From a bacterium (GTDB lineage Bacteria > UBP6 > UBA1177): a stretch of DNA of 52,311 bases. Positions within the stretch are counted from its first letter, which is position 1, and each line of letters starts with the position of its first letter. This document shows positions 31,306 to 47,791 of the stretch, one piece after another. The stretch lies in assembly GCA_017645765.1 (NCBI GenBank), contig JAGCNV010000018.1:1-52311 (forward strand), read 5' to 3'. The notes under the pieces were generated by a model that saw only the letters and a list, made by a program, of their open reading frames with translations, had not been told where the DNA came from and ran no database searches. The position numbers were made by a program, and so were the translations under genes.

Positions 31306-33200
31306 GGTCTTCTTTCCGTAAATACAGTATTGAAAAGATTCAGGAATTCTTCTTCCGAAGTATCCGCCGGTTTTTCCGTATTTATAGTTTTCATCGATTT
31401 TTCATCCGAAAAATAGAGGAATTTTTTGTCGAACCCTATCGTTTTTTCCTTTCTTTCCGCCGCAAAAAGGCTTTGTCCCCACCATCCGGCAGGTTTTTCT
31501 ATCCCCAGAATGTGGGCAATCGTCGGCGCGATATCTGTCTGGTCGGCACGAGTTGAAAAATCGGTTTCGGGAAGTGGTCGTTTAGAAAGAAAAATGAGCG
31601 GAATCTTCGCCAGATTGTTCCTCGGATGACCCGGAATTTTCGCAGTAACATTGTTGAGCGGGCACGAGTGGTCTGCCGAAATAACGATGAGCGTAGAATC
31701 GTCAAAAAGTCCCTCTTTATCGAGACTTTCGATAAAACCAGAGATGTCGAAATCCATCCTGTCGAGAGAAGTAAGCCACAGTTTTGCCACCCGATCCTTT
31801 ATATTGTCGATTTTCGGTGCAGCCGGATAGTTCAGATGGAGGTATTTCATCTGCCCTGCCGGCGGATGCGTATCGGTTCCGAGAATTGATACAAACAGCT
31901 TCTCATCACGATTTCTCTTAATATAATCAATAGTTTGTTCATACAGTTTTCTATCTTCAAGTCCCCAGCCGTAAATATATTTTTTCAGATTTTCATCTTC
32001 GAAAAAATCTTCCCTGCCGATGATTTCGGAAAATCCCATGTTCTGAAAAACAAGATTTTCATTGGCGAAAAATTTCGAAGCACTTCTTATGAAAACCGGC
32101 TTAAAACCGTGCTTTTTCAAGATTTTCGGAAGCGAATTTATGTGACCGGTCGGTTCCTGAATATTGTAATTCGGATGCGAATCGAACGTCACCGTAAGCC
32201 CTTGCAGAGTGGGAGATCCGCTTGTGGTAATGTTGGTAAAAGTCTGCTCCATAATATCGTCGCGGCAGAAAAAGCGTTTTGCGAAATCTCCTTTGATCTT
32301 ACCGTTGTAACAGGGCAGCGCATCAAGCGAAAGAGATTCCGTGAAAATGTAGATCACCCTTGAATATTCTTCGGTTTCAAGCGGTTTCTCCCCGTTTTTG
32401 CCGAGATTCACACAAAAAGCATCTATTGTTTTTTTGTATGGAGAAAAATCATTCGTCACCGTAAAATCTTCAGAAAAAAGCCGGTAATCACCGACAAATC
32501 TTTCTGTAACCGGAGTAAGTACTTTGAATCTTTCTCCCAAAGCGGGAAAAATCACGTCGGTCATAAAGTCTATCCACTGATTCTGCGTAACATAGTAAAT
32601 CTGAGCGTTCCTGAAACCCGTTATGACACGGTCGAACCTCTCGTCTTTATCAAACAGAGCCGAGGCTGAAATATTTAGTAAATTCAACAAAATACAAACA
32701 GAAAGCCAGAAAAACGACTTTTTAAAAAGATCCTCTTTCGGAATTTTTCTTATGCAGAAAAATGAGACTGCGAAAACAGCGGAAACAAATGCAAAAATCA
32801 CAACAAATCCGTACCACGGAACGAAGGAAGTAACGCTGTAAGGCGTGATCAGAGCGAAGTGACTGCGTTCCACAAGCGTGTTACCGAAATAATAAAGCAG
32901 AATGTCGGCAACGGCTAAAGTTGCATTCGCAGCGACGTAAAGCGCCGGAATGAAAGTTATTCTGAATACTGCCTTCAAAATCAGCATGAAAAACAGGAAA
33001 AACGCCGCATCGAACAGAAGTTTGATCGCAAAATGGAAGCAGATATCGGTATCTGTTATTGAAAAACCGTTCTTCTGCGATGCAACGACGAGAAAAATAA
33101 TATTGAGAATCGTAAAAAAAACGACCGAAAGTATCTGAAAAAGGTCAAAACGCGGAAGAAATTTTTTAAAAAATCCTAGGATTTCAGTTTTACCGATCAA
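31302..33200 (-). CDS. LtaS/OpgB-like membrane phosphotransferase (sulfatase fold)
   Basis: 632 residues from a TTG at 33200. This start is preferred to the TTG at 33218 because a promoter just upstream predicts transcription from about 33222 and a GGGGA site lies before 33200. Five or so membrane helices fill residues about 10-190. The extracytoplasmic sulfatase-fold domain starts near residue 290: YIFTESLSLDALP (metal Glu), TSGSPTLQGL with the likely catalytic Thr, FVSILGTDTHPP, and VISADHSCPL (Asp-His metal pair). In a diderm, such enzymes transfer phosphoglycerol or phosphoethanolamine to glycans or lipids. Its position after the secretion cluster suggests surface glycan or lipid modification, which is inference. 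Confidence 0.8.
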   Translation of the reverse strand: MIGKTEILGFFKKFLPRFDLFQILSVVFFTILNIIFLVVASQKNGFSITDTDICFHFAIKLLFDAAFFLFFMLILKAVFRITFIPALYVAANATLAVADILLYYFGNTLVERSHFALITPYSVTSFVPWYGFVVIFAFVSAVFAVSFFCIRKIPKEDLFKKSFFWLSVCILLNLLNISASALFDKDERFDRVITGFRNAQIYYVTQNQWIDFMTDVIFPALGERFKVLTPVTERFVGDYRLFSEDFTVTNDFSPYKKTIDAFCVNLGKNGEKPLETEEYSRVIYIFTESLSLDALPCYNGKIKGDFAKRFFCRDDIMEQTFTNITTSGSPTLQGLTVTFDSHPNYNIQEPTGHINSLPKILKKHGFKPVFIRSASKFFANENLVFQNMGFSEIIGREDFFEDENLKKYIYGWGLEDRKLYEQTIDYIKRNRDEKLFVSILGTDTHPPAGQMKYLHLNYPAAPKIDNIKDRVAKLWLTSLDRMDFDISGFIESLDKEGLFDDSTLIVISADHSCPLNNVTAKIPGHPRNNLAKIPLIFLSKRPLPETDFSTRADQTDIAPTIAHILGIEKPAGWWGQSLFAAERKEKTIGFDKKFLYFSDEKSMKTINTEKPADTSEEEFLNLFNTVFTERRP

Positions 33201-33228
33201 TATAATTCCCCAAGCCAAAAACCAGCCA

Positions 33229-33282: not shown

Positions 33283-36200
33283 CTACTGCAGGAGCATTGT
33301 TTTGTACTTTCCTCCGAAACAGCTTGCCGGCTGACTCAACTTGTTTTTGCACTTTTTACAGTTTCTGTTGTCATACTCATCATAATCCCCCGATTCATCG
33401 TAAAAAATTATCTCCCATTCAGAGTGTTCACACTGAACACTTGAATCAGGCGAAACCTCAAATGTCTTTCCGCTGCCGTAGGCGATTTTCAATTTTGTAT
33501 CAGATGCAAAGTTATGTGTTTCCACGGCACATGAATGATCCATCTGATAACAAGAATTTAAGACATCACAATCAAAATTATGACTGTGTTTTTCGTCTTT
33601 GAAAAATACAAAATCGCCCTTGACCGTAAAGTTGTTCTGATAATTTTTCACAGAGGAGACTGACGCAGACAGAAGAGTCTGTCCTCCGCAAACAGAAGGT
33701 ATCTCGGAATTCAAAGTCAAAGTATAGTCATTTTCGGAAACACAGGACGGCTTCTCGAAATATACATTTAGAGCTTTGTTTTTGAAACTTAGAGAAGCTT
33801 TGTTTGGCTTTTCATCGGAAGAAAGAAGGCAGTAGAGAAATGCGTTGGCTGAAGACTGCGTAAAATTTTTGATATAGTTATTGTTGTCAGCAAAAGTGAC
33901 AACAACTTTCATGTTCCTGAACTGACCGGTACTTTCCGCAGACAATACCGTAGATAAGATGTTGTTTAAAGAAGATAGCGGCATCGAATAACTTCTGCTT
34001 AAAATAAGTTTTTCCTTGTTGTCCTGAAGGACACCGTTGAGATACCTGCCGTAAAGATAAAGATCTATCTTTGAAATTTCCGCCATTTTTCCGGAATCAA
34101 GCATAATTTTAACTTTGAAAACATCTCCGGGATAGAGAAACTGCCCCTTTTGAGGCTCCAGAGAAAGATTCAAGTCAGACATATCGAAAAATCTGAATTC
34201 TGTCACATCCGTTCTTTGTGTCGAAGCGGATTTGCTTTCTACAGAAACCGTGTAATAACCGCTTCCTGAAAGCATTGAAGGCATAATATCCATGCTGTTC
34301 GAGCAATCTGCCGAAAAAGCCGAATTTCCCTGTTTTGTTATAGTACACTTGTAATCGACTCCGTTTTTCGTATCCCACCATAAATTGGATTTACCTTTAC
34401 TAGTAAAAAATTTTTTCGTTAAATTTATCTTAAGAGGCTCTACCGGAGTAAAATCCATAGGTATTGTCAAAGAATGTTCAGAACGATTGCCGACTTCATC
34501 GTAAGCTATGATCTTAAAGTTGTTGATACCGTCAACACTTCCTTCAAGATCGCAGTAAAATTCATCGCAGTTTCCGCTTAAAGCAGCATCGGCATTAGGA
34601 ACATACCGACAACTTTTTATCCAGCCGACTTCTGAAGACTGAATAAAAACACGCATATTTTCAGGAGCTGAAAAATTATCACTGTATGAAAACAGAATCT
34701 GCGGTTTTCTGGACCCTAGAAGCATATATCCTCCGCTGTTGCAGTTCGGAGCATTCACGCAAGTTTTGATAAAAAAAGAACTTTCACTATCAACACATTC
34801 CGTAAAAACAGATTTTTCCGTATCGTAAGAGATAAAAACAGGAGGACGGTTATCTATAAAAACAGAGCCAGAAGAATCGCTGAAATCTTTATTCGTGCAG
34901 TTGCCGACCTCATCGCAAACAGAGACAAAACCTTTACATTCAACAAGCAGGCTGTCTTCTGACGGCATAAGCAGATTGAAAAAATCAAGACTCTCGTATG
35001 CAGCAGCATAACCACCGGTTTTATCCTGAGAAACAGATCCGTTAAAAATGCCGCACGAAACTTTAAAAGCCCATCTGGCGACATCCTTGTCAGGATTGAC
35101 AAGCGATGCTGTAAAATAATTTTTATTCATGACACTGTTGTTGACAAGCACTCTTCCGTCCGATTCCAACATTAGAAGAGGGACTTCCGGCGGAGTCGTA
35201 TCGACCTTAAACGAACCGTAAACCGTTGAATGATTTCCGGCATGATCGACAGCCGTCAGAGTGACTTTATAAAGTCCGTCGGTCTCACTGCCTTCGAACC
35301 CTGCATCAAGAAGAGCAGCTGCAAAAATTTCAGCCGAAAGAGAACATTCACCGGCATTGCAGCTTTCTCTCTCTTCTTCAAAAACGACCGTTTCCTCTTC
35401 CTCCCACTTTGCAATAGTGAATTTTATATTTTCTATCCAGCTGTCAGAAACACTCCACGAAACATTGACATCTTCAGTTCTGACTGTTCCTTCAGGACAA
35501 TCCAGATTTAAAGAAGGTTTTTTGTTGTCGAGAAAAACTGACACATCTTTTTCAGTAATATTGTAAGCTATATCCTGCGCCGAAACAGAAAATTCAAGCT
35601 GCTTCTCCATCGGAACACTTTCATCGTCGGAATATTCTGCAAGCATGGTAAATTCAAGGCTTTCGTCTGAGAATCCGCTTCCATCGATACTCTGCGGCTC
35701 AATCCGCTTCACCCTGAAAACAAAATCGGCAGATTTACTCTTCAAAGAGACTGAATTGAGATCGACGAAACTTCCATACTGAGGAACGACCCTGAATCTA
35801 AGAAGAAAAGCCTTTGCGAAATGAGGTGTCGAACTGTTCATAGAATCATACTGCCTGAATCCGCCTTTCGTATAACTCCCCAAATCCCCTGTCACATCGG
35901 CATTTTCTTCATCTTCAGTTTCAAAAAGATCATGAAAACCGGAGATTTCTATTTTCGGTCCAGGCAAATCAACAGGCACAGGTACACTTTCGGCCGGAAA
36001 AAGAAACTGATCGGAATTTGAGGCGATATTCCCGACAATAGTACCAAGTTGCGTAAAAACCGTTTCATTGAAGGAGCTCGTAAGGAACCTCTTTATCGAA
36101 AGGGCGTAGTAGTATCTGAAAAAGTTGGGATCAAGTTCTATTTTTCTATTGTCTTCACCAAAAAAAAGCTGCTTTTCGCCGTTTTTTCCGTCAAAAACCG

Positions 36201-38157
36201 TATCTTTGTAATCTTCCTGCAAAAGCTGCAAGACATTGGAGACATCGTAAATCCCGTGTTCCGAACCGATATCGGTCTCCATAAAATATGCAAGATATTC
36301 AAGTCCGGAGAGAAGAACATAATATTTGCTCATGCTGTCCGCGGCATTAGTGTTCAAAGGCTCCTCTTTCCACTCAAAAGCGTAGCTCAAATGCTGCGAA
36401 AGGTGCTCTGATACCAGGTAATACAGCTCTTCATCGTCAATATTTCCCAAATTTCTGCGGCTTACAAAAATATAAGTTCCGACAGTCGTAAGCGGTGTAA
36501 CGACGATATCTTCATCCGTAGTTGGAATAAATACCGCCGACAAAGTGCCGCTGAAGCGCCGGGAATCGCTATTTTCCGAAACTACAGGCTCGTAAGTACC
36601 GCCTGAAACGTTCACTATGCAAACTTGCCCGAGTTTCACCTTTATTTCGTTTCCAGAGGACGAATCATCGTTTTTTTTGCTCTCAGAACTGCTTCCGCAT
36701 GAGACCGAAACACTTTCAAAATGACTCAGAGGGTTTGTCACAAAAGGCTTCACCTTAACTGAAACAGTATTTTTCGTATAAAACGGGAATGAAGCCTTAT
36801 ATTCCCTCTTGTTTACCGAAACAGTACACTCAAGAACATTTTTTCCTTCAGGAAGTTTTTCAGTATCGACAACCGCTTTATACTGATAGCTGGTGTTACT
36901 CTGATTTTCTATCGAATAACCTTCGATAAAGCAGGAAATATCTTCAACGGCATATCTTTTGTGAGTCGCTTCGACCTTTATATCAATGCTGTTCCGTGCA
37001 GGATCATCTTCCGAAGCGGTCGGATCAAGAGTTCCGTGCCTATAAAAATCGGCGAAAACCGAAGGAGCTTCGTTGTTGACGAATATAACTTTTTCAGCGC
37101 TTTCTACCCTTATACCGTTACTTGCTTCGCAACGGACAACAACTTCTTTTTCATTTTCAATGTTTTCGGTAGTGAAACTCCCTTGAAAAAAAGCTGCATC
37201 TTCATTTTTGTCAGCCAGTTTTTCTCCGTCTGCGGAACAGTTCAGCGTTACAATCATGTTTTCAGGCTCCGCTTTCGCTTCAATTGCTACCACACCGCTG
37301 AAATACTCCGGCAGAGCTCCTTTGTTTCCTTCCGGATAAACCATGATTTCTATCGAAACTCCGCTTTTTCCAGCCTCTTCGCCGCCTAAAAATTCAGCTT
37401 CGGAAGTTCTTATTTTCTCACTCCACTCCTTTAGTTCCGAAGCGGAGAATTTTTCGCTTACCTCGCTTAAAAAATCACTCATAAGTCCTTTCATAAATGC
37501 TGCATTCACTGTTGCACTACCGAATTTCACATAAGTCGAGCCGTCGATCACATTGTCGTCGGTGAGATCGTCATAAAGCAGATTCAGCAGATTTTCCGTC
37601 GAGAACTGAGTTTCCGCCTGAGTATCGTTCGCAGCCGAAACCGTTTCGGCGATTTTTGCAAAAGCCTGACTCCAAAGATAACGCTTTGTAGCGTCTGTCA
37701 GCGAACTTTGAAGCTCAGGGAAGACATCCCCGGAAATATCGAGATAATCGAACCACTCTGATTTAGAGGTAACAGATCTATATTTTTCTATAAACGAAGA
37801 GAAAAAATCTACCACTACGACGATATTTTTTTCTTCTGCCGCTTTAACACTGCTTTCGTTGCATCCGTTCCACGCCACAGGCTCATCCGACGAAACGAGA
37901 GCCACCGTTCCGCCGCACACTTTGACCTTGAGATCTCCGATATTCCGCACAGATTCAAAGCGTATTTCACCGTTTTCATCCGTTTCACCTGATAAGACCT
38001 CCGTCTCTCCGTCGAAAACTTTTACCTGCGCGTTTTTCTGAACAGTCCTTACAGCGACATCGAACTCCAGTATGCCGTTGTCAGGCCGTTTCCCGTCACA
38101 TGAAACAACAGTCGAAAGAAGAGCGAGACAAAAGAAAAAATTAAAAATCTTTTTCAT
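33283..38157 (-). CDS. Giant Ig-like repeat lipoprotein (1624 residues) coupled to the T4SS-like genes
   Basis: The signal peptide ends LLSTVVSC, with the acylated Cys near residue 20. Residues about 25-85 look like a carboxypeptidase-regulatory or Ig-type beta sandwich (VKVFDGETEVLSGETDENGE). A helical region follows (about 110-250). Several Ig/cadherin-like modules are then separated by the typical linkers FVNNEAPSVFADF, FLDNKKPSLNLD, VDTTPPEVPLL and FIDNRPPVFIS. Many Cys pairs are probably disulfides. The C-terminal about 60 residues carry C-x-H and C-x2-C pairs (VQCEHSEWE, NCKKCKNK) that could bind metal. It begins with an ATGA overlap to the beta-barrel gene. A surface-exposed fibre or adhesin is the likely role; I do not recognise a named family. 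Confidence 0.7.
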   Translation of the reverse strand: MKKIFNFFFCLALLSTVVSCDGKRPDNGILEFDVAVRTVQKNAQVKVFDGETEVLSGETDENGEIRFESVRNIGDLKVKVCGGTVALVSSDEPVAWNGCNESSVKAAEEKNIVVVVDFFSSFIEKYRSVTSKSEWFDYLDISGDVFPELQSSLTDATKRYLWSQAFAKIAETVSAANDTQAETQFSTENLLNLLYDDLTDDNVIDGSTYVKFGSATVNAAFMKGLMSDFLSEVSEKFSASELKEWSEKIRTSEAEFLGGEEAGKSGVSIEIMVYPEGNKGALPEYFSGVVAIEAKAEPENMIVTLNCSADGEKLADKNEDAAFFQGSFTTENIENEKEVVVRCEASNGIRVESAEKVIFVNNEAPSVFADFYRHGTLDPTASEDDPARNSIDIKVEATHKRYAVEDISCFIEGYSIENQSNTSYQYKAVVDTEKLPEGKNVLECTVSVNKREYKASFPFYTKNTVSVKVKPFVTNPLSHFESVSVSCGSSSESKKNDDSSSGNEIKVKLGQVCIVNVSGGTYEPVVSENSDSRRFSGTLSAVFIPTTDEDIVVTPLTTVGTYIFVSRRNLGNIDDEELYYLVSEHLSQHLSYAFEWKEEPLNTNAADSMSKYYVLLSGLEYLAYFMETDIGSEHGIYDVSNVLQLLQEDYKDTVFDGKNGEKQLFFGEDNRKIELDPNFFRYYYALSIKRFLTSSFNETVFTQLGTIVGNIASNSDQFLFPAESVPVPVDLPGPKIEISGFHDLFETEDEENADVTGDLGSYTKGGFRQYDSMNSSTPHFAKAFLLRFRVVPQYGSFVDLNSVSLKSKSADFVFRVKRIEPQSIDGSGFSDESLEFTMLAEYSDDESVPMEKQLEFSVSAQDIAYNITEKDVSVFLDNKKPSLNLDCPEGTVRTEDVNVSWSVSDSWIENIKFTIAKWEEEETVVFEEERESCNAGECSLSAEIFAAALLDAGFEGSETDGLYKVTLTAVDHAGNHSTVYGSFKVDTTPPEVPLLMLESDGRVLVNNSVMNKNYFTASLVNPDKDVARWAFKVSCGIFNGSVSQDKTGGYAAAYESLDFFNLLMPSEDSLLVECKGFVSVCDEVGNCTNKDFSDSSGSVFIDNRPPVFISYDTEKSVFTECVDSESSFFIKTCVNAPNCNSGGYMLLGSRKPQILFSYSDNFSAPENMRVFIQSSEVGWIKSCRYVPNADAALSGNCDEFYCDLEGSVDGINNFKIIAYDEVGNRSEHSLTIPMDFTPVEPLKINLTKKFFTSKGKSNLWWDTKNGVDYKCTITKQGNSAFSADCSNSMDIMPSMLSGSGYYTVSVESKSASTQRTDVTEFRFFDMSDLNLSLEPQKGQFLYPGDVFKVKIMLDSGKMAEISKIDLYLYGRYLNGVLQDNKEKLILSRSYSMPLSSLNNILSTVLSAESTGQFRNMKVVVTFADNNNYIKNFTQSSANAFLYCLLSSDEKPNKASLSFKNKALNVYFEKPSCVSENDYTLTLNSEIPSVCGGQTLLSASVSSVKNYQNNFTVKGDFVFFKDEKHSHNFDCDVLNSCYQMDHSCAVETHNFASDTKLKIAYGSGKTFEVSPDSSVQCEHSEWEIIFYDESGDYDEYDNRNCKKCKNKLSQPASCFGGKYKTMLLQ

Positions 38158-38780
38158 ACTTTCCCCCAGTTATAGTAATTTACAAAGAATGTTGCACCGA
38201 AAAAGCCGAACAGATCAAGCGAATGATCATGCGGAGACCACTTGTAGAGCACTTGCGCAGAGAGCATTATCCACTCCCAGACTCTGAACTGGAAATCGAT
38301 CCCCGCAGCGACAACACCGTTTACTTTCGCGTAATCTTCTTTCTTGTAAGTAGCGATACTTCTCCCGCCGTCATCAATAAATTCGATATTTGAAAAAGTC
38401 TCGACTTTGAAACCGCCTCCGGCAACGATGTGAGGCGAAAAAAAAGTGCCTGGAAAAACATTGTATCTTGCAAGAACAAGCGTTTGTACCCGCCAATAGT
38501 CAAAATATTCCTTTCCTTTGATCTCCTGAAACTCCGCTTTTCTCGAAGTGTCGCCGACCCGCGTAAATGAAGGCTGCAAGCCGATGTCGAAGTTGTCAGT
38601 CAGACCGAAAAAAAAGTTCAAACCCGCATTCCAGCTGGCATATACGACAGTCGTTTTACTGTCGGTTTTAAGTGAAAACGGGAAAAATCCGCCTCCTCCG
38701 ATATTGATCTGGATCTCGCCTTCTTCCGCAAAAAGCGTAAAAGAAAAAATAAATAAAATCAGAAAAACAAACTTTTTCAT
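38154..38780 (-). CDS. Outer-membrane beta-barrel-like protein
   Basis: 208 residues from the ATG at 38780, preferred over the frame start at 38798 because the true signal peptide begins MKKFVFLILFIFSFTLFA and the previous gene ends at 38782. The mature part alternates polar and hydrophobic or aromatic residues with Gly-rich turns (GEIQINIGGGGFFPFSL, ASWNAGLNFFFGLTDNFDIGLQPSF, VAAGIDFQFRVWEWIML, FFGATFFVNYYNWGKV), typical of an eight- to ten-strand OmpA/OmpW-size barrel. It lies between the VirB10-like gene and the giant lipoprotein with a 2-bp gap and an ATGA overlap. An anchor or pore partner for either is plausible. Confidence 0.72.
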   Translation of the reverse strand: MKKFVFLILFIFSFTLFAEEGEIQINIGGGGFFPFSLKTDSKTTVVYASWNAGLNFFFGLTDNFDIGLQPSFTRVGDTSRKAEFQEIKGKEYFDYWRVQTLVLARYNVFPGTFFSPHIVAGGGFKVETFSNIEFIDDGGRSIATYKKEDYAKVNGVVAAGIDFQFRVWEWIMLSAQVLYKWSPHDHSLDLFGFFGATFFVNYYNWGKV

Positions 38781-38781
38781 G

Positions 38782-39819
38782 CTATTCAAGATAAACAAAA
38801 AACGATGTCCCGGCAGGAACTCTGTATTCCTGCCTCATTTTGTTCGCATCTTCCTGCTTTGCGAGCTCCGCTGTCGCAGGATTCACCGTGTTTGCCGCTG
38901 TCATTCCAGCCGTGCTGCCTACACTCCCGGCAAGTCTCGATACGACCGCACCGGCAGTTTTGGTAATTCCCTGCTTTACTTCAGATTTTATATTTTCACC
39001 CGATATGTCGGTAACTTCCGATTCTATACCGGGGTCCTTTCCCGAAACCGCAAAACCTTTGACCGAAAATTCGTCAGCACCGATGATCAGTTTGGAAAAT
39101 GCCAACTGCGTCCGCTTGTTGACGAAACTTTTAGCAGATCCGTAGAACTTAGCCCCTTTCGGAATCTCGCCGGTTTCCTCAAGAACAGTCGCAACAACGG
39201 TGGATTGAGCCGTCGAACGTATCGAAAAATCGAGTTTCACCTTCACTTTCACATCGTGCAGAGCAAAAAGATTGTCTTTGCCGAGAATCTCTTTCTTTCC
39301 TTTTACGAAAACACCGCCGCCGGCACTTTCTCCTCCGGGAACAAACCGCCTTTTTCTTGTTGTCTGAGTGGCGCCTGAAGCTGCCGCATCGCTCATTTTT
39401 GCATAAGCCTCAAGAATCTCTCTGTCTTTTTCCTCATTTTTATTTCTTTTCTTTGTTACAGCCGCTTTCGGAGCGGCTTCGGCGCGTTTTTCTTCCGTTT
39501 CACCAGAGTGATTTTTCTTAGATTTCGGATTGTTCATAGCCGATTTAATATCTCCTGTCACCCTGCCGCGAAGCAACTCGCTGAAGTCGTTGAATTTAAC
39601 TTCTTCCGCTCTTTCCTTTTCACGTTTTCCGCCGCCGAAGACAACCGCAGTAAAAACCAGCATTACGGCAGCAAGAGTCAGGAGAACCGCAAAAAAAGTC
39701 ACTTTTCTGCGCTGCCCTTCATATTTCACTGGTCTGATTTCCTTTGAAACAGACGGCGAATCGGAACCTTGCCCTTCTTCCGCCAGCATTTCAAGAGGCG
39801 ACTTTTCCCTTTCTTTCAT
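38782..39819 (-). CDS. VirB10/TraB/TrbI-like T4SS scaffold protein
   Basis: 345 residues from the ATG at 39819 (TGATG with the previous stop codon). A cytoplasmic N-terminus is followed by one membrane helix (about 40-62) and a long charged, low-complexity linker (65-160) as in TraB/VirB10. The C-terminal beta domain has IPKGAKFYGSAKSFVNKRTQ, a strand pair with IIGADEFSVKGFAV, Gly/Ala helices (AGAVVSRLAGSVGSTAGMTA, the likely antenna region) and the closing RVPAGTSFFVYLE. These proteins span both membranes and form the outer-membrane pore cap. The order after TraE- and TraK-like genes matches F-type systems. Confidence 0.8.
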   Translation of the reverse strand: MKEREKSPLEMLAEEGQGSDSPSVSKEIRPVKYEGQRRKVTFFAVLLTLAAVMLVFTAVVFGGGKREKERAEEVKFNDFSELLRGRVTGDIKSAMNNPKSKKNHSGETEEKRAEAAPKAAVTKKRNKNEEKDREILEAYAKMSDAAASGATQTTRKRRFVPGGESAGGGVFVKGKKEILGKDNLFALHDVKVKVKLDFSIRSTAQSTVVATVLEETGEIPKGAKFYGSAKSFVNKRTQLAFSKLIIGADEFSVKGFAVSGKDPGIESEVTDISGENIKSEVKQGITKTAGAVVSRLAGSVGSTAGMTAANTVNPATAELAKQEDANKMRQEYRVPAGTSFFVYLE

Positions 39820-40766
39820 CAAAACGACACCTTCAGTTCAAGTTTTCGCTTTTTTCCGGCACTTTCGTTCACTTCGATTATGTATTCGCGCGAATAGTCC
39901 TCATCGCTTATTTTAAAGGCGATACCGCCGCTTACTATCTCGTCGAACTGCATCGAAAATTTGTCAATGTGATACTGCGCGTTGTCGATCTCTACCTTTC
40001 CCCCTTTTGTCGAATAGATCTTCACCGACTCTATATGAAACCGCTGCCGGTAACGGTTTTTTACCGAGAAATTCACCGTTATAAGGGCATCCTTTCCGAT
40101 CTTGCAGATACGGTCGCTCCTCAGGAAAACCAGATTTTCCTCTGTTCTCGCAGAATAGCTGCTGCACTGGAAAAATTCGCTGAAAGATTTCGCCATCATC
40201 CCGATCATGTTTTTATCTATCTCTTTTTTTATTTCCTTCATCCGCTTTTCGTATTTTCCTTCAAGCTCTTTTCTCAACATTTCCAGATGTTTATTGACTG
40301 CTTTGTTCGAACTCTCCCACTCAGGATATGAAAAAATTATCCTGTTGCTCGCCTCTTCAGTCGGACGTATCACGAAATTGAAGATAAAAGCCTGCCCTGA
40401 ATTTATTTTGAACTGCACATTTGAGCTTAAGCCGTACATCAGAGCCTCTTCAGGTGCCTCGCTGAACATAAGCCCCCACACTTTCATCTTCAAAGGCTCC
40501 GTTTCGACCTCGATTTTAAGAAGTCCGGCATCACCTACAGTCGGAGTTTCGGTAAGCGAAATATTTTCAGGAAACTCAAAAACAAAGACTTCACCTAAAG
40601 CGATGTTCACTGTTCTGTAAATCACAGTATCGCTGTTCTGTATCGTAATGACTGCGACTTTTTCTGTGATCGGAATAAATTTCGCCTTTTCCTCGTCACT
40701 GTCAAAATCCCTGGCAAGCACATTTAGCACAGCTAAAAAAGCTAATAAAATCAGAAGTTTTTTCAT
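39819..40766 (-). CDS. VirB9/TraK-like T4SS secretin-type protein
   Basis: 315 residues. The signal peptide covers about 1-18 (LLILLAFLAVLNVLA). An N-terminal beta domain (ITIQNSDTVIYRTVNIALGE, IVIRPTEE-like strands) is followed by a helical insert (about 155-195) and a C-terminal beta domain (ALITVNFSVKNRYRQRF, GGIAFKISDEDYSREYII). Length and layout fit TraK/VirB9, the periplasmic ring protein that binds the VirB10/TraB cap. Assignment rests on position between the VirB8- and VirB10-like genes and on fold pattern rather than a strict motif. There are 5 bp before it and a 1-base overlap after it. Confidence 0.65.
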   Translation of the reverse strand: MKKLLILLAFLAVLNVLARDFDSDEEKAKFIPITEKVAVITIQNSDTVIYRTVNIALGEVFVFEFPENISLTETPTVGDAGLLKIEVETEPLKMKVWGLMFSEAPEEALMYGLSSNVQFKINSGQAFIFNFVIRPTEEASNRIIFSYPEWESSNKAVNKHLEMLRKELEGKYEKRMKEIKKEIDKNMIGMMAKSFSEFFQCSSYSARTEENLVFLRSDRICKIGKDALITVNFSVKNRYRQRFHIESVKIYSTKGGKVEIDNAQYHIDKFSMQFDEIVSGGIAFKISDEDYSREYIIEVNESAGKKRKLELKVSF

Positions 40767-40771
40767 TAAGC

Positions 40772-41503
40772 CTACTCTTTTTCCTCTTCAATAAGATATT
40801 CTTTTTCGTTTTCAGTCAGATATGCCCTGAGTTCCCTGAAATCATCAAAACTTTTTCCTGTGTAGAAATCGACGAGAAGCCCGTCGGGAGATAGTTCAAG
40901 CGAGACAGGAACTACAAGAAGCAGTGCCGAAAACCAGACTAAAGTTTTCTTTTTTTCGTTTTCTCCGGAATAGTCTACGGCATTTCCGAAAGTCATCTCG
41001 CCCAAACCCTCGACAGTTACCGTGGAACCTACTTCCAATGCACCTTTCACGACTTTGAGCTTTGTCAGAGAAAACTTCGTTTCGAAATTTTTGTTCTTCC
41101 ACATATCGATCTTTTCATTGTGGACAGACTTGTCGAGAAGGATCTGTCTGAATTTAGGTGTCAGCATATTGTAGGCCTCTTTCAGATCTTCGTCGATATT
41201 AGGGCTCACTCCGTCGAATTTACCGATAAAATCGGAAATAAAGCGGTGCACTCTGACAAGATTTGTTGATGTTTCCAAAGTTTCGCTTCCAGCAAAAACG
41301 ATCCGCCTTCCATCTTTGTCAAAAGCTATTACCGGTGCGGGTTTCACAGATACTGACCATGCAAAAAGAAGAGCTGAAAGAGTTATAAAAAACATCATCA
41401 CGCAGAAAGCAAAAGCAAGTATGCGGAAAAATTTTCTCATTTTTTCAATATCGCGATACTTCAAGGTATCGAAAAATTTTGTTGCATCATCTTTTTTCAT
41501 CAT
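40772..41503 (-). CDS. VirB8/TraE-like T4SS inner-membrane protein
   Basis: 243 residues. It starts at ATGATG with an ATGA overlap to the VirB6-like gene. A short cytoplasmic part contains DTLKYRDIEKMRKFFRI, followed by one membrane helix (about 25-50, ILAFAFCVMMFFITLSALLFAW). A periplasmic domain has VRVHRFISDFIGKFD, MLTPKFRQILLDKS and FSLTKLKVVKGALEVGSTVTVEG. This matches the TraE/VirB8 pattern of one N-terminal anchor and an NTF2-like or TraE periplasmic domain. The C-terminal tail is acidic. Confidence 0.7.
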   Translation of the reverse strand: MMKKDDATKFFDTLKYRDIEKMRKFFRILAFAFCVMMFFITLSALLFAWSVSVKPAPVIAFDKDGRRIVFAGSETLETSTNLVRVHRFISDFIGKFDGVSPNIDEDLKEAYNMLTPKFRQILLDKSVHNEKIDMWKNKNFETKFSLTKLKVVKGALEVGSTVTVEGLGEMTFGNAVDYSGENEKKKTLVWFSALLLVVPVSLELSPDGLLVDFYTGKSFDDFRELRAYLTENEKEYLIEEEKE

Positions 41504-42390
41504 TTCATCCTGTAACGGTCAATATGAGCCAAAGTTATAGTCTTTATGTTAACAACTGCACTTCTGATCTGCTCCGAGCCAACCGCTTTTGAAGCGAAAA
41601 AAGGAATCGCTGTAATACCGAGCCACATGAACAAAAGACCTGAGAATACCGCAACAGTGTCTCTGTCCATTCTGAAACTGTAGGGGCAGGCGCATATTTC
41701 GGAAGCAAGCTTCATGATTTCGACCTGTGCCTTACCCGTGATGAAGATAAAAACGGCGTAAAACACAGGCCACAGGGCAAAAACAGCGATCGAGCGGAAA
41801 AAACCTCCGATGGAAGCGAAACCCTGATTGGGAAAAGCAGGGAAGACCAGTGCAAAACATAGTCCCACCATGTTCAAAGACATCAGAGTTCCCCATCCGT
41901 ATGAAAAAATCACCTCTTTCGACACCCAGACAAAAAGCATTAGTAAAAAAACGGCTAATTTGCAGAAATACTGGAAATAAAAAGATGTGATCAAAGCAGT
42001 CCCGGCTTCTCCCAAAAGAGGATCGGAAAACTGCGGACACATTTCCGGAATACTGCCGGAAAGCCCTGAAATCATCAGAAGGTTCGAGGAATAGAGAGAA
42101 AAGGCTTTGAAGAACTCATCGTCAAGCTCTCCGACTATCGGAAACTGATATGTGACAAGCATTATTTTTTCTATAAAATCAGGCAGATAGAGATAAAGCA
42201 GGACCGTAAGCGCCGACTTCCACGCAACTCCTGCAAAATCGGGCTTTTCGGACTTCTGTATTTTGAAGATTTCAGTCACAAAACTTATTGCGAGACCTAC
42301 CGAAATCACAATAAAAACGACGCTCCAGAGCCATCCTGCTCCAGCCGATTCAAGCAGGGTTTTAGGGTTATAGCAGATATTGAAATTCAT
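41500..42390 (-). CDS. VirB6/TrbL-like polytopic inner-membrane protein
   Basis: 296 residues with six or so hydrophobic helices (about 20-40, 50-75, 125-150, 160-185, 195-220, 240-262). A periplasmic loop between helices 2 and 3 has Cys residues. A run of small residues in the middle (GWGTLMSLNMVGLCFALVF) resembles the VirB6 core. Position between VirB4 and VirB8 genes is the VirB6 slot. The gene has ATGA overlaps on both sides. Sequence similarity to named families is not obvious to me. Confidence 0.6.
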   Translation of the reverse strand: MNFNICYNPKTLLESAGAGWLWSVVFIVISVGLAISFVTEIFKIQKSEKPDFAGVAWKSALTVLLYLYLPDFIEKIMLVTYQFPIVGELDDEFFKAFSLYSSNLLMISGLSGSIPEMCPQFSDPLLGEAGTALITSFYFQYFCKLAVFLLMLFVWVSKEVIFSYGWGTLMSLNMVGLCFALVFPAFPNQGFASIGGFFRSIAVFALWPVFYAVFIFITGKAQVEIMKLASEICACPYSFRMDRDTVAVFSGLLFMWLGITAIPFFASKAVGSEQIRSAVVNIKTITLAHIDRYRMK

Positions 42391-44732
42391 CTTCCCCCGC
42401 TTAAAAATTCCTTCACGGCATCCATAATGAAAAGATTCTTCCTGTATGCCAGCATAGCCGCTTCAGCACAGGCGTTGATGAGGTTAACACCCCGGATTTC
42501 AGCAAATCTCTCAAGCAGCCGGTTTTCCTCCTTGTCACTCGTTGCTACGGCGTAATCGAATGGCGAAAGCTCTATCCTCACTACTTCGGATTCCACTTTG
42601 TCTCCCAGCTGAGTTCTGAAAAGAGCCGTCGAATACTCCCCTTTTACGGTTTTAAGGCTTTCAAAAGCTGTTTTTTCAGCAGCACTCAGACCAAAATCAT
42701 CCGCGATCACACGCTTCGCCTCTTCATCGCTGGCATGGCTTAAAAATATCGTTGTAGTCGTGTTGATCTTGATTTTCGAAGAAAGGGAGACCTCTTTGAA
42801 ACTTAAGAAATTCTGCGTCACTGTCCAGACTCCGGTATTGTATTTTCTCGCCGTGGCGAAAAGTTCTTCTATCAGGTCGGCAAGACGCGGATCTTTGATA
42901 AGCTGAGCCGCTTCGTCAAAAACTATGAAGCTGTTCGTTATCTCGAAAGCGCTCCGCTTCGCTTCCTGAATGACGATGAATGTCAGAAGTTCCTTCAGCT
43001 TTTCGCTGAGCCCCGAAATTCCCTGCAAATCATAGATCACAAAAGGCTCTCTGCCGTAATCGACAGTTGATTTTCCGTTTATGATGCGCGACACCGGATC
43101 ATCTAAAAAACCCCGTAGCAGGCGGCGTATCATTTCGGCTTTTGTAGTGTCTTCATCTTCGATAAAATCGATCAAATCTGCAAGTATTGGTTCGCTTTTG
43201 GCAGCATACATACTGCGTACCGCCTTCGAAACGATGTTTCTGAAAAGATCGGCGTTCATATTCTTCTCGCGGATTTCAAGAACAATATCGAGGATCGTGT
43301 TGAGAAAGTTGAGCGCAGAGCTGTTCCATTTCCCGTCAACATATACTTTATCCCGCTTCGGAAAAGGGTTTATCACGATTCTTCCGCTCGGATCTATCGG
43401 AATGAAAACGCCTCCGTAAAGTTTCACCATTTTCAGATAACTTGAGTTTTCAGCCCCTGCAAAATCAACAATGAAGATCCTTCCAGGGTAATTTTCATCG
43501 TAATGTATGTTCGGGAAAAAAGTGTGTGCGATTAGAGTGTTTACCGTCACTGATTTTCCGCTTCCGGAACAACCGAAAATAGAGCCGTTTTTATTGTTGC
43601 GCTTCGATGATCCGGCATCAAAACCGTATATTTCGCCGAAACGGTTCCTTAAAAAAAGTGGAAATCTGCCGCCAAAGTCGCCGTGTCCGTGCTTTGCCGC
43701 AGGAATCATCTCGATAAAATTCGCACTGAGAACTCTGATCTGCCGCTCAGAAAATCTCATGAGAGATGGAAGCGACTTAAAGAATTCCAGATCGTGCCCC
43801 CATGTCTCCTCCTCAAAGAAAAATCCGTAATTCTTCATTAGAACGCAAAGTTCTTCCGTACGTTTTTCAAGCAGCCTGAGGTCTTGCTCCGAGACAACAA
43901 TCTTCGCCGAAAGAAAACCTATCTTGTGCTTTGAAACGGTAAGAAGATTCATCAGTTCGTCCGATTCCTTCGCGTTCTTCGCTGCACCTCTGCCGCTTGT
44001 CGCGATGTAAAAACGCTCTTTCGCCTCGAGAGAAAGTAGTTCCCGCGCCTGAGGAAGTGCCGTAAACGAAACTGAAAAAGTGAAATTGCACGAAAAGTTG
44101 TCTATGAGACGTGAAACCGCGAAAGGATGAGTTTCCTTCGGCATGAATTTTAAAGAAAGGACTTTGCAGAAACTCTCTCCGACCTTGAAATATTCAGGAG
44201 TCGCCGTGCACTGCTTTTGCAAAAGTTCTTCGCGAACGCTCATTTCGGGATGGATCTTCATCTCTCCGCCGAAAGAAATCATTTCGTAAAGAAACTCCTT
44301 TATTTCCGAATTGTCGAGACAGTGCGCGGTCATTCCAAAACTATGAACGAGATTTTTGTGGTATTCGATATCCGGAACACTTTCCGGAAGACGGGTTTTA
44401 GGCAAATCATCGGAAACAGCGAAAAAATAACGGCATTTTCTGATCCCGTTCTCACGAAGAAATCCGAGACGCTGCCTTATTACAGGATTGGTTTCAGAAT
44501 CGAAGCGTCCTTCAACAAGTTCATCAGTGTCGCGGACTATTGCAAAAAACTCGACAGCTGTTCCTTCGCGCAGTTCCCGTATGAAAAAGGACTCAGCCGA
44601 TTGCAGATCGTGAGTAGAAAAATAACAGTCGGCCCCCTTAACTTCCCAAAGAGAGAAGCGCTGCATCGCGGAATTCAGGATAAAACCATCCTCAACGGCA
44701 CATATTTTCAGCATATCGAAAATACTTTTCAT
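42387..44732 (-). CDS. virB4: VirB4/TraC-type T4SS ATPase
   Basis: 781 residues. An N-terminal domain (about 1-340) contains the usual CagE/TrbE/VirB-like region. Then comes the P-loop GCSGSGKSVTVN at 387-398, preceded by GSSKRNNKNG, and a further strand with FIVDFAGAENSSYLK. Walker B is FIVFDEAAQ at 602-610, followed by ATARKYNTGVWTVTQNF, the strand-to-helix segment typical of VirB4/TraC, and an arginine region. It powers pilus assembly and substrate transfer at the inner membrane. It is full length and shows no frameshift, so the system should be functional. ATGA overlaps join it to both neighbours. Confidence 0.9.
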   Translation of the reverse strand: MKSIFDMLKICAVEDGFILNSAMQRFSLWEVKGADCYFSTHDLQSAESFFIRELREGTAVEFFAIVRDTDELVEGRFDSETNPVIRQRLGFLRENGIRKCRYFFAVSDDLPKTRLPESVPDIEYHKNLVHSFGMTAHCLDNSEIKEFLYEMISFGGEMKIHPEMSVREELLQKQCTATPEYFKVGESFCKVLSLKFMPKETHPFAVSRLIDNFSCNFTFSVSFTALPQARELLSLEAKERFYIATSGRGAAKNAKESDELMNLLTVSKHKIGFLSAKIVVSEQDLRLLEKRTEELCVLMKNYGFFFEEETWGHDLEFFKSLPSLMRFSERQIRVLSANFIEMIPAAKHGHGDFGGRFPLFLRNRFGEIYGFDAGSSKRNNKNGSIFGCSGSGKSVTVNTLIAHTFFPNIHYDENYPGRIFIVDFAGAENSSYLKMVKLYGGVFIPIDPSGRIVINPFPKRDKVYVDGKWNSSALNFLNTILDIVLEIREKNMNADLFRNIVSKAVRSMYAAKSEPILADLIDFIEDEDTTKAEMIRRLLRGFLDDPVSRIINGKSTVDYGREPFVIYDLQGISGLSEKLKELLTFIVIQEAKRSAFEITNSFIVFDEAAQLIKDPRLADLIEELFATARKYNTGVWTVTQNFLSFKEVSLSSKIKINTTTTIFLSHASDEEAKRVIADDFGLSAAEKTAFESLKTVKGEYSTALFRTQLGDKVESEVVRIELSPFDYAVATSDKEENRLLERFAEIRGVNLINACAEAAMLAYRKNLFIMDAVKEFLSGGR

Positions 44733-45001
44733 TTTTTCGCCCCGACAACGTCTTTATGCTGCCGGCAGTAGAAAACTTTTCCTCCGCCGAACATCCTGAG
44801 AACGAAAATCCACCACTCAGCCTTGCCTGAAAACATTTTCTCACGGACAAAAAAAGTCGCGGCAAAAATCACGGCAGGCAGAACAACAAGAAGAACAATG
44901 TTTTTTAAAACTGCGCCCAAAAAGAAAAAAACCGTCATTAAAACCGCCTGACCTTTATCGACAAAAGCCTGTTTTGTTCCCAAAATACCGTAAACCTTCA
45001 T
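44729..45001 (-). CDS. VirB3/TraL-like small membrane protein
   Basis: 90 residues from the ATG at 45001, which overlaps the previous stop codon as ATGA; an in-frame GTG two codons upstream is less likely. One or two membrane helices lie in residues about 15-50 (VLMTVFFFLGAVLKNIVLLVVLPAVIFA), then a cytoplasmic tail with WWIFVLRMFGG. Size, topology and position before VirB4 fit VirB3/TraL. Confidence 0.6.
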   Translation of the reverse strand: MKVYGILGTKQAFVDKGQAVLMTVFFFLGAVLKNIVLLVVLPAVIFAATFFVREKMFSGKAEWWIFVLRMFGGGKVFYCRQHKDVVGAKK

Positions 45002-45303
45002 ATCCACCCTGCGATAATGCTTAAAATAGTCGAAAACGCGGCAAGTCCTGCACCGGCACCAAGAATTTTGAGTGCGTCCGACCAGATGTTCTGATCTTTG
45101 TTGATATATCTGAAAAGAAGCGAAACTATAGCCCCGCCGAGCCCGCCGTAGATCCCGATATATCTCGCCACGTCGAAAACGGTGTCAGCCATCTCCTGAA
45201 ATTTCGATTTTATACCGCTGGTATCTGCCGCAAACAAAAAATCAGGAAAAGTCAAAACAATAATCATAAAAACAGCAGTAGCACACCATTTAATTTTTCT
45301 CAA
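44998..45303 (-). CDS. VirB2/TrbC-like pilin candidate
   Basis: 101 residues from a TTG at 45303, chosen because GAGAGGTGG lies just before it; the longer frame from 45327 has no ribosome site. The signal peptide is about residues 1-26 (AVFMIIVLTFPDFLFAA). The mature part has two hydrophobic helices (about 46-66 and 78-101: IYGGLGGAIVSLLF, LGAGAGLAAFSTILSIIAGWI) joined by a short charged loop (RYINKDQNIWSD). That is the VirB2/TraA pilin plan. It is the first gene of the T4SS-like row. Confidence 0.68.
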   Translation of the reverse strand: MRKIKWCATAVFMIIVLTFPDFLFAADTSGIKSKFQEMADTVFDVARYIGIYGGLGGAIVSLLFRYINKDQNIWSDALKILGAGAGLAAFSTILSIIAGWI

Positions 45304-45553: not shown

Positions 45554-45586
45554 AGAGTGTTGTTTAACTCTAAAAAGGAGGACAAT

Positions 45587-47791
45587 ATGAAGAAAATGAT
45601 TTTTGTGATCGTTCTGTTCTTAGCTCTCGTTTTCTGCGGATGCGGAAATTCTGAAGAAGAGACCGTATGCGCAAGTTCGCTGGATTGTGAAATCGGCTTC
45701 GTATGCAATACTGACACGGGAAAATGTCAACGTCACGATAAAGCCGATACTTCAGATTCGGGAGATACTTTTGCCGACACCTCAGATTCAGGAGACAGCT
45801 CCGATTCCGGAGATTCTGACACTTCCGATACTGGGGAAATTGCTGGGAAAACAGGTGTAATGTGTGACTGTTTCGGCAAGCAGTATGAAATTCCAACATT
45901 TGCTTCCGGGAACGGTGCGGCATGGTGCAATGCTGACGAAGACGGTGACAACATCCCGAACTGCATCGAAGTCCCGAAAGGTGTTCCTGTTGATACAGAT
46001 GAAGACGGTACTCCTGATTACAAAGACACCGATTCAGACAACGACTGGATTCCCGATTCGGAAGAGTGTTCCGATTTCGCCGAAAACAAAATGTGTCCCG
46101 ATACAAACGGTGACGGAATGCCGAATTACCGCGATATAGACAGTGACGGCGACGGTATTCTCGATTCAACAGAATGTCCTAAAGAAAAATTTGAACAAAA
46201 TCAGAAATGTCCAGATGCAGACGAGGATGAAACACCGAATTATATTGACGATGACAGTGACGGTGACGGCATTCCCGACAGAACAGAAACTGATAAAGAT
46301 GCCGACGGTGACGGCATTCCCAACTATCTCGATCCTGACAGTGACGATGACGGTATTCCCGATGCGAAAGAGTGTCCTTTTCAACCCTGCCGTGATTCAA
46401 ATGACAACAATATCCCCGATTTTATGGAAACCGACAGTGACGGTGACGGTCTGCCGGACAGTCAGGAAGTGTTCTGCTCAGATTCGGGAATTCATTCTTC
46501 AACAAGTAAAGATACGGACGGTGACGGATTCAGCGACCTTGCCGAAGTTTTGATTGGAAGTGACCCGTGCAATGCAGAGGAAGGTGTCAAGGATAAAGGG
46601 GTAAAATTCTATTTTGAGCTTCCGTACGAAGGGGAAAAGCAGAATGATACACTCGTTTTCTCGCCGCAGGTTCAGAAAGCCGACATTTTCTTCAATGTCG
46701 ATACGACGGGTTCGATGGGCGAAGAAATCGATGCTTTAAAAAGCACTCTTTCTTCAAAAATTATTCCTGGAATCAAAGCAAAAATTACCGACAGTGCGTT
46801 CGGAGTCTCCTATTTCGATGATTTCCCTGTCAACGGTTACGGCTACACCTCATATTTGTGGCAAACCTGCAATGACATGCCTTTCGGTTTGCTGCAATCT
46901 CCTACAACAGACACTTCGGCAGCACAGGCTGGAGTAAACCAACTCAGCCTTCGCTGCGGTGCAGACGGTCCCGAGTCGGGTTATGAATCGCTTTACAAAA
47001 TCGCTACCGGGGTAGAACTCAGCTGGAACGGCGGTTCTGTAGCGGCCGGAGGAGTCGGTTTCAGAGAAGGAGCAATACCTATTGTTTTCCACATCACGGA
47101 TGCCGCAGCTCACGATTCAAGCAACACTCCTTACAACTCCTCTTATGTCTACACTATATTTAATCAGTCTCAGGTCATTGAGAAAATGAACGCGATCGGA
47201 GCAAAAGTCGTTTCTGTTGTATCAGAAGGCGGTGATACAACTACTGCAACAAATCAGCTCACCACTGTTTCACACGATACAGGTGCAGTCGTTCCGAGCT
47301 GTGCCAACGTCGGAAGAACAACTCTTCTCTACACGATAAAAAGCGACGGCTCGAACCTTGATTTATCCGCAATCGACGGTGTTGACGCACTCATAAAATA
47401 TGCAAGTTTCGACGTTAGAGTAGAACCTGCCGATGACCTCAATGATCCGTCGCTTGACACATCCTGCTTCCTTAAAAAAGTGGAAGCTCTTGAATACCAG
47501 CCGGTCGACAGCTGTGCAGCAACAATTATTGCAACTCCGGCAGCATTCAACGGAGCTGATTACAACAACGGGTTCAGCAACTTCACGACCGGAACTTCGA
47601 CCGCCGGAACTCCCGGAAACAAGCTCACCTTCAACGTTGAAGCCATGAATGACTGTTTCCCGCAGGAGAAAGAGGCGAAAATGTTCAAAGCATACATCAA
47701 CGTAATCGACAACAAAACCGGATCAGTTCTTGACACTCAGCCTGTAACGATAATCGTTCCGGCAAAAGAAAGCAGCACTGAAAACTACTAA
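45587..47791 (+). CDS. Lipoprotein with thrombospondin-type-3 repeats and von Willebrand A domain
   Basis: 734 residues from the ATG at 45587 (AAGGAGGA before it). The lipobox is LALVFCGC. A Cys-rich module follows (CASSLDCEIGFVC, about 25-45), then a Ser/Asp-rich linker built of DSGD/TSDT units (about 50-85). About seven Ca2+-binding TSP3-type repeats (units like DSDGDGIPD, about 117-325) come next. The VWA domain starts near residue 363 with the metal-site motif VDTTGSMGEEID at about 371. The C-terminus is Cys-containing. It is a surface-exposed, Ca2+-stiffened adhesin-like protein. It is divergent from the T4SS-like row, with which it may share control. Confidence 0.85.
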   Translation: MKKMIFVIVLFLALVFCGCGNSEEETVCASSLDCEIGFVCNTDTGKCQRHDKADTSDSGDTFADTSDSGDSSDSGDSDTSDTGEIAGKTGVMCDCFGKQYEIPTFASGNGAAWCNADEDGDNIPNCIEVPKGVPVDTDEDGTPDYKDTDSDNDWIPDSEECSDFAENKMCPDTNGDGMPNYRDIDSDGDGILDSTECPKEKFEQNQKCPDADEDETPNYIDDDSDGDGIPDRTETDKDADGDGIPNYLDPDSDDDGIPDAKECPFQPCRDSNDNNIPDFMETDSDGDGLPDSQEVFCSDSGIHSSTSKDTDGDGFSDLAEVLIGSDPCNAEEGVKDKGVKFYFELPYEGEKQNDTLVFSPQVQKADIFFNVDTTGSMGEEIDALKSTLSSKIIPGIKAKITDSAFGVSYFDDFPVNGYGYTSYLWQTCNDMPFGLLQSPTTDTSAAQAGVNQLSLRCGADGPESGYESLYKIATGVELSWNGGSVAAGGVGFREGAIPIVFHITDAAAHDSSNTPYNSSYVYTIFNQSQVIEKMNAIGAKVVSVVSEGGDTTTATNQLTTVSHDTGAVVPSCANVGRTTLLYTIKSDGSNLDLSAIDGVDALIKYASFDVRVEPADDLNDPSLDTSCFLKKVEALEYQPVDSCAATIIATPAAFNGADYNNGFSNFTTGTSTAGTPGNKLTFNVEAMNDCFPQEKEAKMFKAYINVIDNKTGSVLDTQPVTIIVPAKESSTENY
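45935..46560 (+). repeat. In-frame thrombospondin-type-3 repeat region
   Basis: DNA units around gacagtgacggtgacggcat recur about seven times with variable spacing and encode D-x-D-x-D-G Ca2+-binding loops. The repeats also create long spurious antisense open frames. Confidence 0.8.

Follow-up and report, generated by a model that had tools for sequence, protein, structure and literature searches.

Few type IV secretion systems (T4SSs) are known to work without a coupling protein: Ptl of Bordetella, VirB of Brucella, ComB of Helicobacter pylori and Trw of Bartonella. It is an open question whether such a machine can be driven by VirB4 alone. The published ComB set comprises VirB2 to VirB4 and VirB6 to VirB10, with neither VirD4 nor VirB5, and among the VirD4-less systems Ptl operates from the periplasm by a two-step mechanism (PMC12857230). 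ComB was a leading candidate for a VirB4-only machine until 2026, when it was found to need a hidden VirB11, the distantly encoded HP1421 (PMC13395361). On plasmid R27, a 155-kDa protein with immunoglobulin (Ig)-like domains, RSP, is not exported in the absence of the T4SS ATPase TrhC (PMC6764697); its export also needs TrhA and TrhH, and RSP binds conjugative pili (PMC8730810). Here we analyse a nine-gene operon on a stretch of 52,311 nucleotides (contig JAGCNV010000018.1 of assembly GCA_017645765.1, positions 1 to 52,311; hereafter the window) from a bacterium of the candidate phylum UBP6. We propose, with a probability of roughly one half (about 0.48), that the product of this operon is a non-conjugative T4SS, resident on the chromosome, whose VirB4 powers the display of a giant lipoprotein, or of a pilus carrying that lipoprotein. 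In this family of systems VirB11 is absent from whole genomes as well as from allied plasmids, and the constant partner is the giant Ig-like lipoprotein.

The host is a rumen metagenome-assembled genome (MAG) of 2.65 Mb in 109 contigs, 99% complete, whose closest relatives are MAGs from the rumen and the ruminant gut; the window is one entire contig of it. The operon lies on the minus strand, from 45303 down to 33283, and its neighbouring genes are at most 5 bp apart, most of them overlapping by 1-4 bp. In the order of reading, it comprises:

44998..45303, minus strand: VirB2/TrbC-like pilin, with a signal peptide ending in FAA and a mature two-helix pilin of about 76 residues
44729..45001, minus strand: VirB3-like small membrane protein, named from position and topology only
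42387..44732, minus strand: VirB4/TraC ATPase with intact Walker A and B motifs, the sole ATPase of the operon
41500..42390, minus strand: VirB6-like polytopic membrane protein with about five transmembrane segments, also named from position and topology only
40772..41503, minus strand: VirB8, identified via its orthologues
39819..40766, minus strand: VirB9/TraK-like periplasmic protein with a signal peptide, identified by a fold match
38782..39819, minus strand: VirB10/TraB/TraM-like protein with a cytoplasmic N-terminus, one transmembrane segment, a linker and a conserved C-terminal domain
38154..38780, minus strand: small outer-membrane beta-barrel-like protein of 208 residues, with a signal peptide and a weak match to OMP_b-brl_2 (0.06)
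33283..38157, minus strand: giant Ig-like lipoprotein of 1624 residues, with the lipobox VVSC at residue 20 and a start codon overlapping the stop codon of the barrel gene

A preliminary description of the window had recognised the VirB2-, 3-, 4-, 6-, 8-, 9- and 10-like row at 38154-45303. This row is real, all seven genes being intact open reading frames in the order and on the strand described, but its extent was underestimated: the operon runs on to 33283, the barrel inside the interval had gone unnamed and the lipoprotein had been missed. The chaining of the genes mostly by ATGA or TGATG overlaps was borne out when the junctions were read off the sequence. ATGA joins VirB2 to VirB3, VirB3 to VirB4, VirB4 to VirB6, VirB6 to VirB8 and the barrel to the lipoprotein, and TGATG joins VirB9 to VirB10; gaps of 5 bp and 1 bp separate VirB8 from VirB9 and VirB10 from the barrel, respectively. 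The VirB2 gene starts with TTG and has the Shine-Dalgarno sequence GAGAGG. We found no VirB5-like tip gene within the operon and no tRNA in the window.

In Pfam and NCBIfam scans of the single sequences, no T4SS gene but VirB4 passed the cut-off; it matches TIGR00929 at 6.8e-44 and the Pfam TraG P-loop family at 3.3e-16, and its Walker motifs read GCSGSGKS (A) and FIVFDEA (B). Orthologues gave names to three further products. PF04335 matches 8 of 15 VirB8 orthologues (best 5e-7) and leaves the window's own sequence unmatched. For VirB10, whose single transmembrane segment lies near residue 43, Transposon_TraM matches 3 of 15 orthologues weakly (best 1e-4) and TrbI matches two. TrbC matches are weak in 7 of 11 VirB2 orthologues (best 0.003), which have the pattern of a two-helix pilin, and the mature VirB2 is nearly invariant across the family. 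Searches of the VirB3-like and VirB6-like proteins against their respective families gave no match. VirB9 also lacked any sequence match; its AlphaFold model (predicted local distance difference test, pLDDT, 79.6) had as its five top Foldseek matches in the PDB, at 2.9e-8 to 3e-6, R388 VirB9, the outer-membrane core complex of the F plasmid, related conjugation systems and Dot/Icm chains. The best of these was TrwF/VirB9 at 2.9e-8, with a TMt of 0.72 for the VirB9 N-terminal domain. PDB sequence-profile searches with VirB8, VirB9, VirB10 and the barrel returned no matches, and hhalign comparison of the UBP6 alignments with single R388 proteins gave no signal, the alignments being too shallow. 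We consider the predicted identity of VirB4 secure, as well as that of VirB8 through its orthologues. A VirB4 with its Walker motifs and a VirB8-9-10 envelope complex, in which VirB10 is placed by a weak match plus topology, are the hallmarks by which the operon belongs to the T4SS superfamily.

The preliminary description had seen no coupling protein, VirB11 or relaxase in the window, and our searches extend this to the whole genome. For the type IV coupling protein (T4CP), PF02534 gives no match in the genome, and PF12696 matches nothing but this VirB4, both there and in the genus. The T2SSE family finds five strong proteins in the genome, all read as PilT/PilB/GspE/TfpB-like and none of them as VirB11, and two weak matches, one of which is a helicase-like protein; by this search the VirB11 that characterizes MPF_T (VirB/D4-type) systems and ComB-type uptake (ComB11) is lacking there. 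The relaxase families PF03432, PF08751 and PF07514 are all without a match in the genome, other families such as MOBV and MOBC not having been searched; MOBH matches in relatives are weak and short, and none occurs in the genome itself. As a positive control, the same searches detected a MobF relaxase and TraD in the sister genome G020. These genes, the TraD being of F type, lie on separate small contigs (C126 and C266; L078 and L079), and they apparently represent unrelated conjugative elements within UBP6. Of the MPF_F accessory set (TraF, TraH, TraN, TraU, TraW and TrbC) the operon encodes none, no genome-wide search having been made. Taken with the distribution given below, this gene content makes it well supported that the system performs a job other than DNA transfer, with VirB4 as its only ATPase.

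We then asked how the operon is distributed, using 28 genomes of the phylum and 358 from outside it, the latter searched with VirB9 at a threshold of 1e-4. VirB9 is single-copy in 22 of the 28 phylum genomes: all 15 of the genus, all 4 of the rest of the family, the only genome from a second family and two out of five in a third. The three genomes of a UBP6 family outside the order lack it, the 358 genomes beyond the phylum give no match, and a search of viral contigs with the VirB9 alignment gave none either. The distribution of VirB4 agrees, except for one 59%-complete genome that lacks it. The barrel is present in exactly the same 22 genomes and absent from the other six, a coincidence with a chance of 1 in 376,740 if kinship is ignored and a less extreme one if kinship is considered. 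The lipoprotein was found in 21 of the 22, the contig of the last one stopping inside the barrel gene, and was never seen in a phylum genome devoid of the T4SS. Wherever a relative's contig is of sufficient length, the row is colinear, the third family excepted, and such colinearity is, judged from these loci, far beyond chance. In the VirB4 tree the UBP6 proteins group in a single clade (100/100), which divides along family lines. Median ratios of nonsynonymous to synonymous substitution (dN/dS) range from 0.035 for VirB9, the lowest of the machine, to 0.16 for VirB3; these are rough values, as dS is near saturation, and by this measure the operon genes are under purifying selection. The preliminary description had left room for an integrative conjugative element. 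We reject this candidate, without a search for att sites as such, on account of a distribution that is not sporadic, all 15 genomes of the genus carrying the operon, as well as its single copy, the hutH and dagK flanks, which most loci of the genus retain, and the lack of a T4CP and of any tested relaxase.

Some loci depart from the common pattern. In the third family the order of VirB9 and VirB10 is swapped, and a second VirB8-like gene lies between VirB6 and VirB8 (L043 6239-6883; L044 4752-5408). In G015 (L038 2988-4436), a 482-residue gene product resembling a divergent AAA-4/AlbA_2 protein is encoded between VirB2 and VirB3. The VirB4 proteins of G004 (L041) and G010 (L040), filed in the same genus, are just 63% identical to that of the window, below the values of other genera, and the G010 copy contains an in-frame TGA. 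Next to the operon in the window, a gene for a sulfatase-family protein (31302-33218, minus strand) lies 64 bp 3' of the lipoprotein gene on the same strand and is kept in at least three relatives. Upstream, a divergent gene (45557-47791, plus strand) encodes a lipoprotein that combines TSP3 repeats with a VWA-like domain; it was rejected as a part of the system, being whole in the loci of only two relatives.

The giant lipoprotein consists of a conserved N-terminal region (residues 1-370) and bacterial Ig-like modules, Big_13 matching 8 of 9 orthologues (best 4e-15). Its gene is the last of the operon wherever the contigs of relatives extend far enough, and no full paralogue of it or of the barrel was found. 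It is also the least conserved product, with a mean identity within the genus of 64% versus 91% for VirB9.

Plasmids carry allied systems. Among them, pYRE of Myxococcus stipitatus (NZ_CP102771) has the closest match to the UBP6 VirB4 (2e-40), and it shares with UBP6 homologues of VirB4 (phmmer 3e-44), VirB8, VirB9 (1e-11) and the barrel (1.6e-6), together with an Ig lipoprotein of 1605 residues (UBP6 profile E-value 1.6e-18). A plasmid of Myxococcus sp. MxC21-1 (NZ_CP123279) shares VirB4 (phmmer 7e-21), VirB8 and the lipoprotein (1e-11). Unlike that of UBP6, both systems are plasmid-borne and have VirB10 fused to a Ser/Thr kinase: at the VirB10 place lies an N-terminal kinase with a VirB10-like C-terminal domain (L112 17858-20299; L114 24386-26761), the pYRE fusion being assigned from its C-terminus. 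Plasmid pYRE differs further by an annotated TraM-recognition T4CP. On the MxC21-1 plasmid a DUF2381 protein occupies the VirB9 place, a hint that DUF2381 could represent a family of VirB9 proteins. The third system, on a plasmid of Candidatus Tenderia electrophaga (CP013100, 67919-78977), reads VirB2, VirB3, VirB4, an additional gene, VirB6, VirB8, VirB9, VirB10, a small barrel-like protein and an Ig lipoprotein. This lipoprotein matches the UBP6 profile (8e-5); the remaining similarity is weak, and the other parts were named by TrbC and TrbI matches and by position. In contrast to UBP6, there is a T4CP-like gene (weak PF12696), a MOBP relaxase as typed by PLSDB and an extra gene of 225 residues at the VirB5 place. 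The protein at its VirB4 position (L113 13512-15884) has no Walker A and no significant Pfam match, and a Walker B-like VLLDE motif remains. Among 72,556 plasmid records the pYRE lipoprotein matches just these three, of which at least two carry coupling-protein-like genes; homology of the barrel was demonstrated on pYRE only. On all three the lipoprotein gene lies 3' of VirB10. That the lipoprotein domain as such is exclusive to T4SSs was rejected on Vibrio and Burkholderia examples. On large replicons of Vibrio, lipoproteins of 2215-3229 residues (L117 13983-23672; L118 13716-21692 and 22221-28868) have an N-terminal region resembling that of the Tenderia protein, and no T4SS gene was found adjoining their genes.

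A search of the allied plasmids by phmmer with R388 VirB11 or TrwB was too insensitive, and we used PF00437 instead with R388 as a positive control. None of the three plasmids has a T2SSE/VirB11 gene, whereas R388 gives one in the same search, and therefore the lack of VirB11 seems to characterise this T4SS type as a whole rather than to mark decay; the type may never have included VirB11. Similarly, the giant lipoprotein seems to be a regular part of this proposed type, in which a VirB2-10 block is followed by a small barrel and a giant Ig lipoprotein without VirB11, as found in UBP6 and on the plasmids. The UBP6 operon may have derived from such plasmids. In the VirB4 tree, pYRE joins Thermus, and the plasmid members are not sisters of UBP6; the branches are long, and this topology speaks against a single, simple line of descent. 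In Thermus the system includes a VirB11-type ATPase, and no lipoprotein of this kind is annotated there. Altogether, the UBP6 system is a real, conserved and non-conjugative T4SS, and it may represent, in its resident form, a class not described before. In a tentative picture, to which we give distinctly less than even odds, the giant Ig-like lipoprotein and the outer-membrane barrel would form the surface end of this class in place of VirB5 and VirB7; it would lack VirB11, be carried by plasmids in Myxococcota and Gammaproteobacteria, and have been fixed in one UBP6 order as a VirB4-powered display or contact organelle.

Since the DNA-handling parts are absent and the tie to a giant Ig-like protein is constant, the evidence suggests display or contact rather than DNA transfer. 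With no T4CP to bring in substrates from the cytoplasm, the machine would act on ones that Sec has already exported. We speculate that Sec exports the lipoprotein and the barrel, and that VirB4 extracts VirB2 to build a short pilus or piston inside a conduit of VirB6, VirB8, VirB9 and VirB10. The assembly of VirB2 could then push or dock the giant lipoprotein at the surface, or carry it on the pilus, the barrel serving as its partner in the outer membrane, and the Ig modules may attach to other cells or to feed particles. On the related plasmids the same lipoprotein might serve mating contact, of which UBP6 would have kept the contact part alone. This mechanism is the likeliest of several. It is favoured by the strict co-inheritance of the nine genes under purifying selection, by the lack of a T4CP, of VirB11 and of the tested relaxases, by the Ig-like modules, by the Ig-like lipoproteins of the allied plasmids and by two precedents, RSP of R27 for export and Ptl for a two-step machine without VirD4. 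Several points weigh on the other side. Since lipoproteins have other ways of reaching the surface, this one may not be moved by the machine; instead of being cargo, it could be a structural part that replaces VirB7 or VirB5; domains of its type are also present away from T4SS loci, as in the giant Vibrio lipoproteins matched by the Tenderia protein; the AlphaFold model of its N-terminal region (pLDDT 70) has no clear relative; and RSP is not described as a lipoprotein. If the display model is true, a T4SS has been reduced to a contact function, which would offer a testable VirB4-only system, a candidate mating-contact factor for the plasmid relatives and a conserved surface organelle for an uncultured rumen phylum.

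The preliminary description had proposed that a system driven by VirB4 alone could build a pilus or a fibre or export proteins; the part about a job other than DNA transfer is well supported. The best clue to that job, the barrel and the giant Ig-like lipoprotein, had been overlooked, and so had DNA import, which VirB4-type machines carry out in H. pylori (ComB) and in archaea (Ced). A machine that just builds an adhesive or mating-type VirB2 pilus, with the lipoprotein as its base or adhesin, as proposed for Bartonella Trw, would agree with the intact pilin, VirB4, VirB6 and VirB8-10 and with the near-invariance of the mature VirB2. F-type pili, moreover, are assembled without VirB11. Yet the operon has no gene for a VirB5-like tip, and it encodes one invariant pilin where Trw has multiple variant ones; we regard a simple pilus as rather unlikely. 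DNA uptake through an importer of the ComB or Ced kind that would supply ComEC has in its favour a gene set almost equal to the published ComB set (PMC12857230) and the presence of ComEC in the genome and most relatives. However, ComB requires the VirB11 HP1421 (PMC13395361), none having been found in this genome, and ComEC is equally common in genomes without the T4SS; both facts make ComB-like import less likely. In addition, PilB, PilT and a GspD-type secretin provide the usual route, and the barrel and the Ig lipoprotein would be left without a role, so that we consider uptake improbable.

Alternatively, the machine could export protein effectors to other cells, like Brucella VirB or Ptl, from unlinked genes for Sec-exported substrates. 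T4CP-less systems of that kind are known (PMC12857230), but no effector or immunity genes were recognised in or beside the operon, whose sole constant passengers are the barrel and the lipoprotein, and this explanation seems slightly more improbable still. The plasmid-borne nature of the allied machines would fit a decaying or idle remnant of an integrated conjugative plasmid, which intact open reading frames and catalytic motifs, dN/dS values of 0.035-0.16 across the order and the strict co-inheritance of nine genes make very hard to believe.

The UBP6 row has the same gene order as R388, minus VirB5, VirB7 and VirB11. It is close to ComB in being chromosomal and in having VirB2-4, VirB6 and VirB8-10 without VirD4 or VirB5; ComB differs in that it imports DNA, relies on HP1421 encoded elsewhere and has no giant lipoprotein in its published set. 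Ptl, Brucella VirB and Trw have richer VirB sets than UBP6 and known host-directed roles. As in UBP6, they have no coupling protein, and a two-step or pilus-only function has been proposed for them (PMC12857230). The T4SS of Patescibacteria and the archaeal Ced system are, likewise, domesticated chromosomal conjugation machineries, mostly without a relaxase (PMC12102498, PMC9905601); unlike UBP6, they are MPF_FATA-related or archaeal and, by their class, presumably have no diderm VirB8-9-10 complex with an Ig lipoprotein. Finally, the IncHI plasmid R27 differs in being conjugative, in its larger gene set and in secreting RSP to the medium, and it resembles UBP6 in having large Ig-like proteins (RSP and RSP2) encoded with its T4SS, the ATPase TrhC being needed there for the export of RSP.

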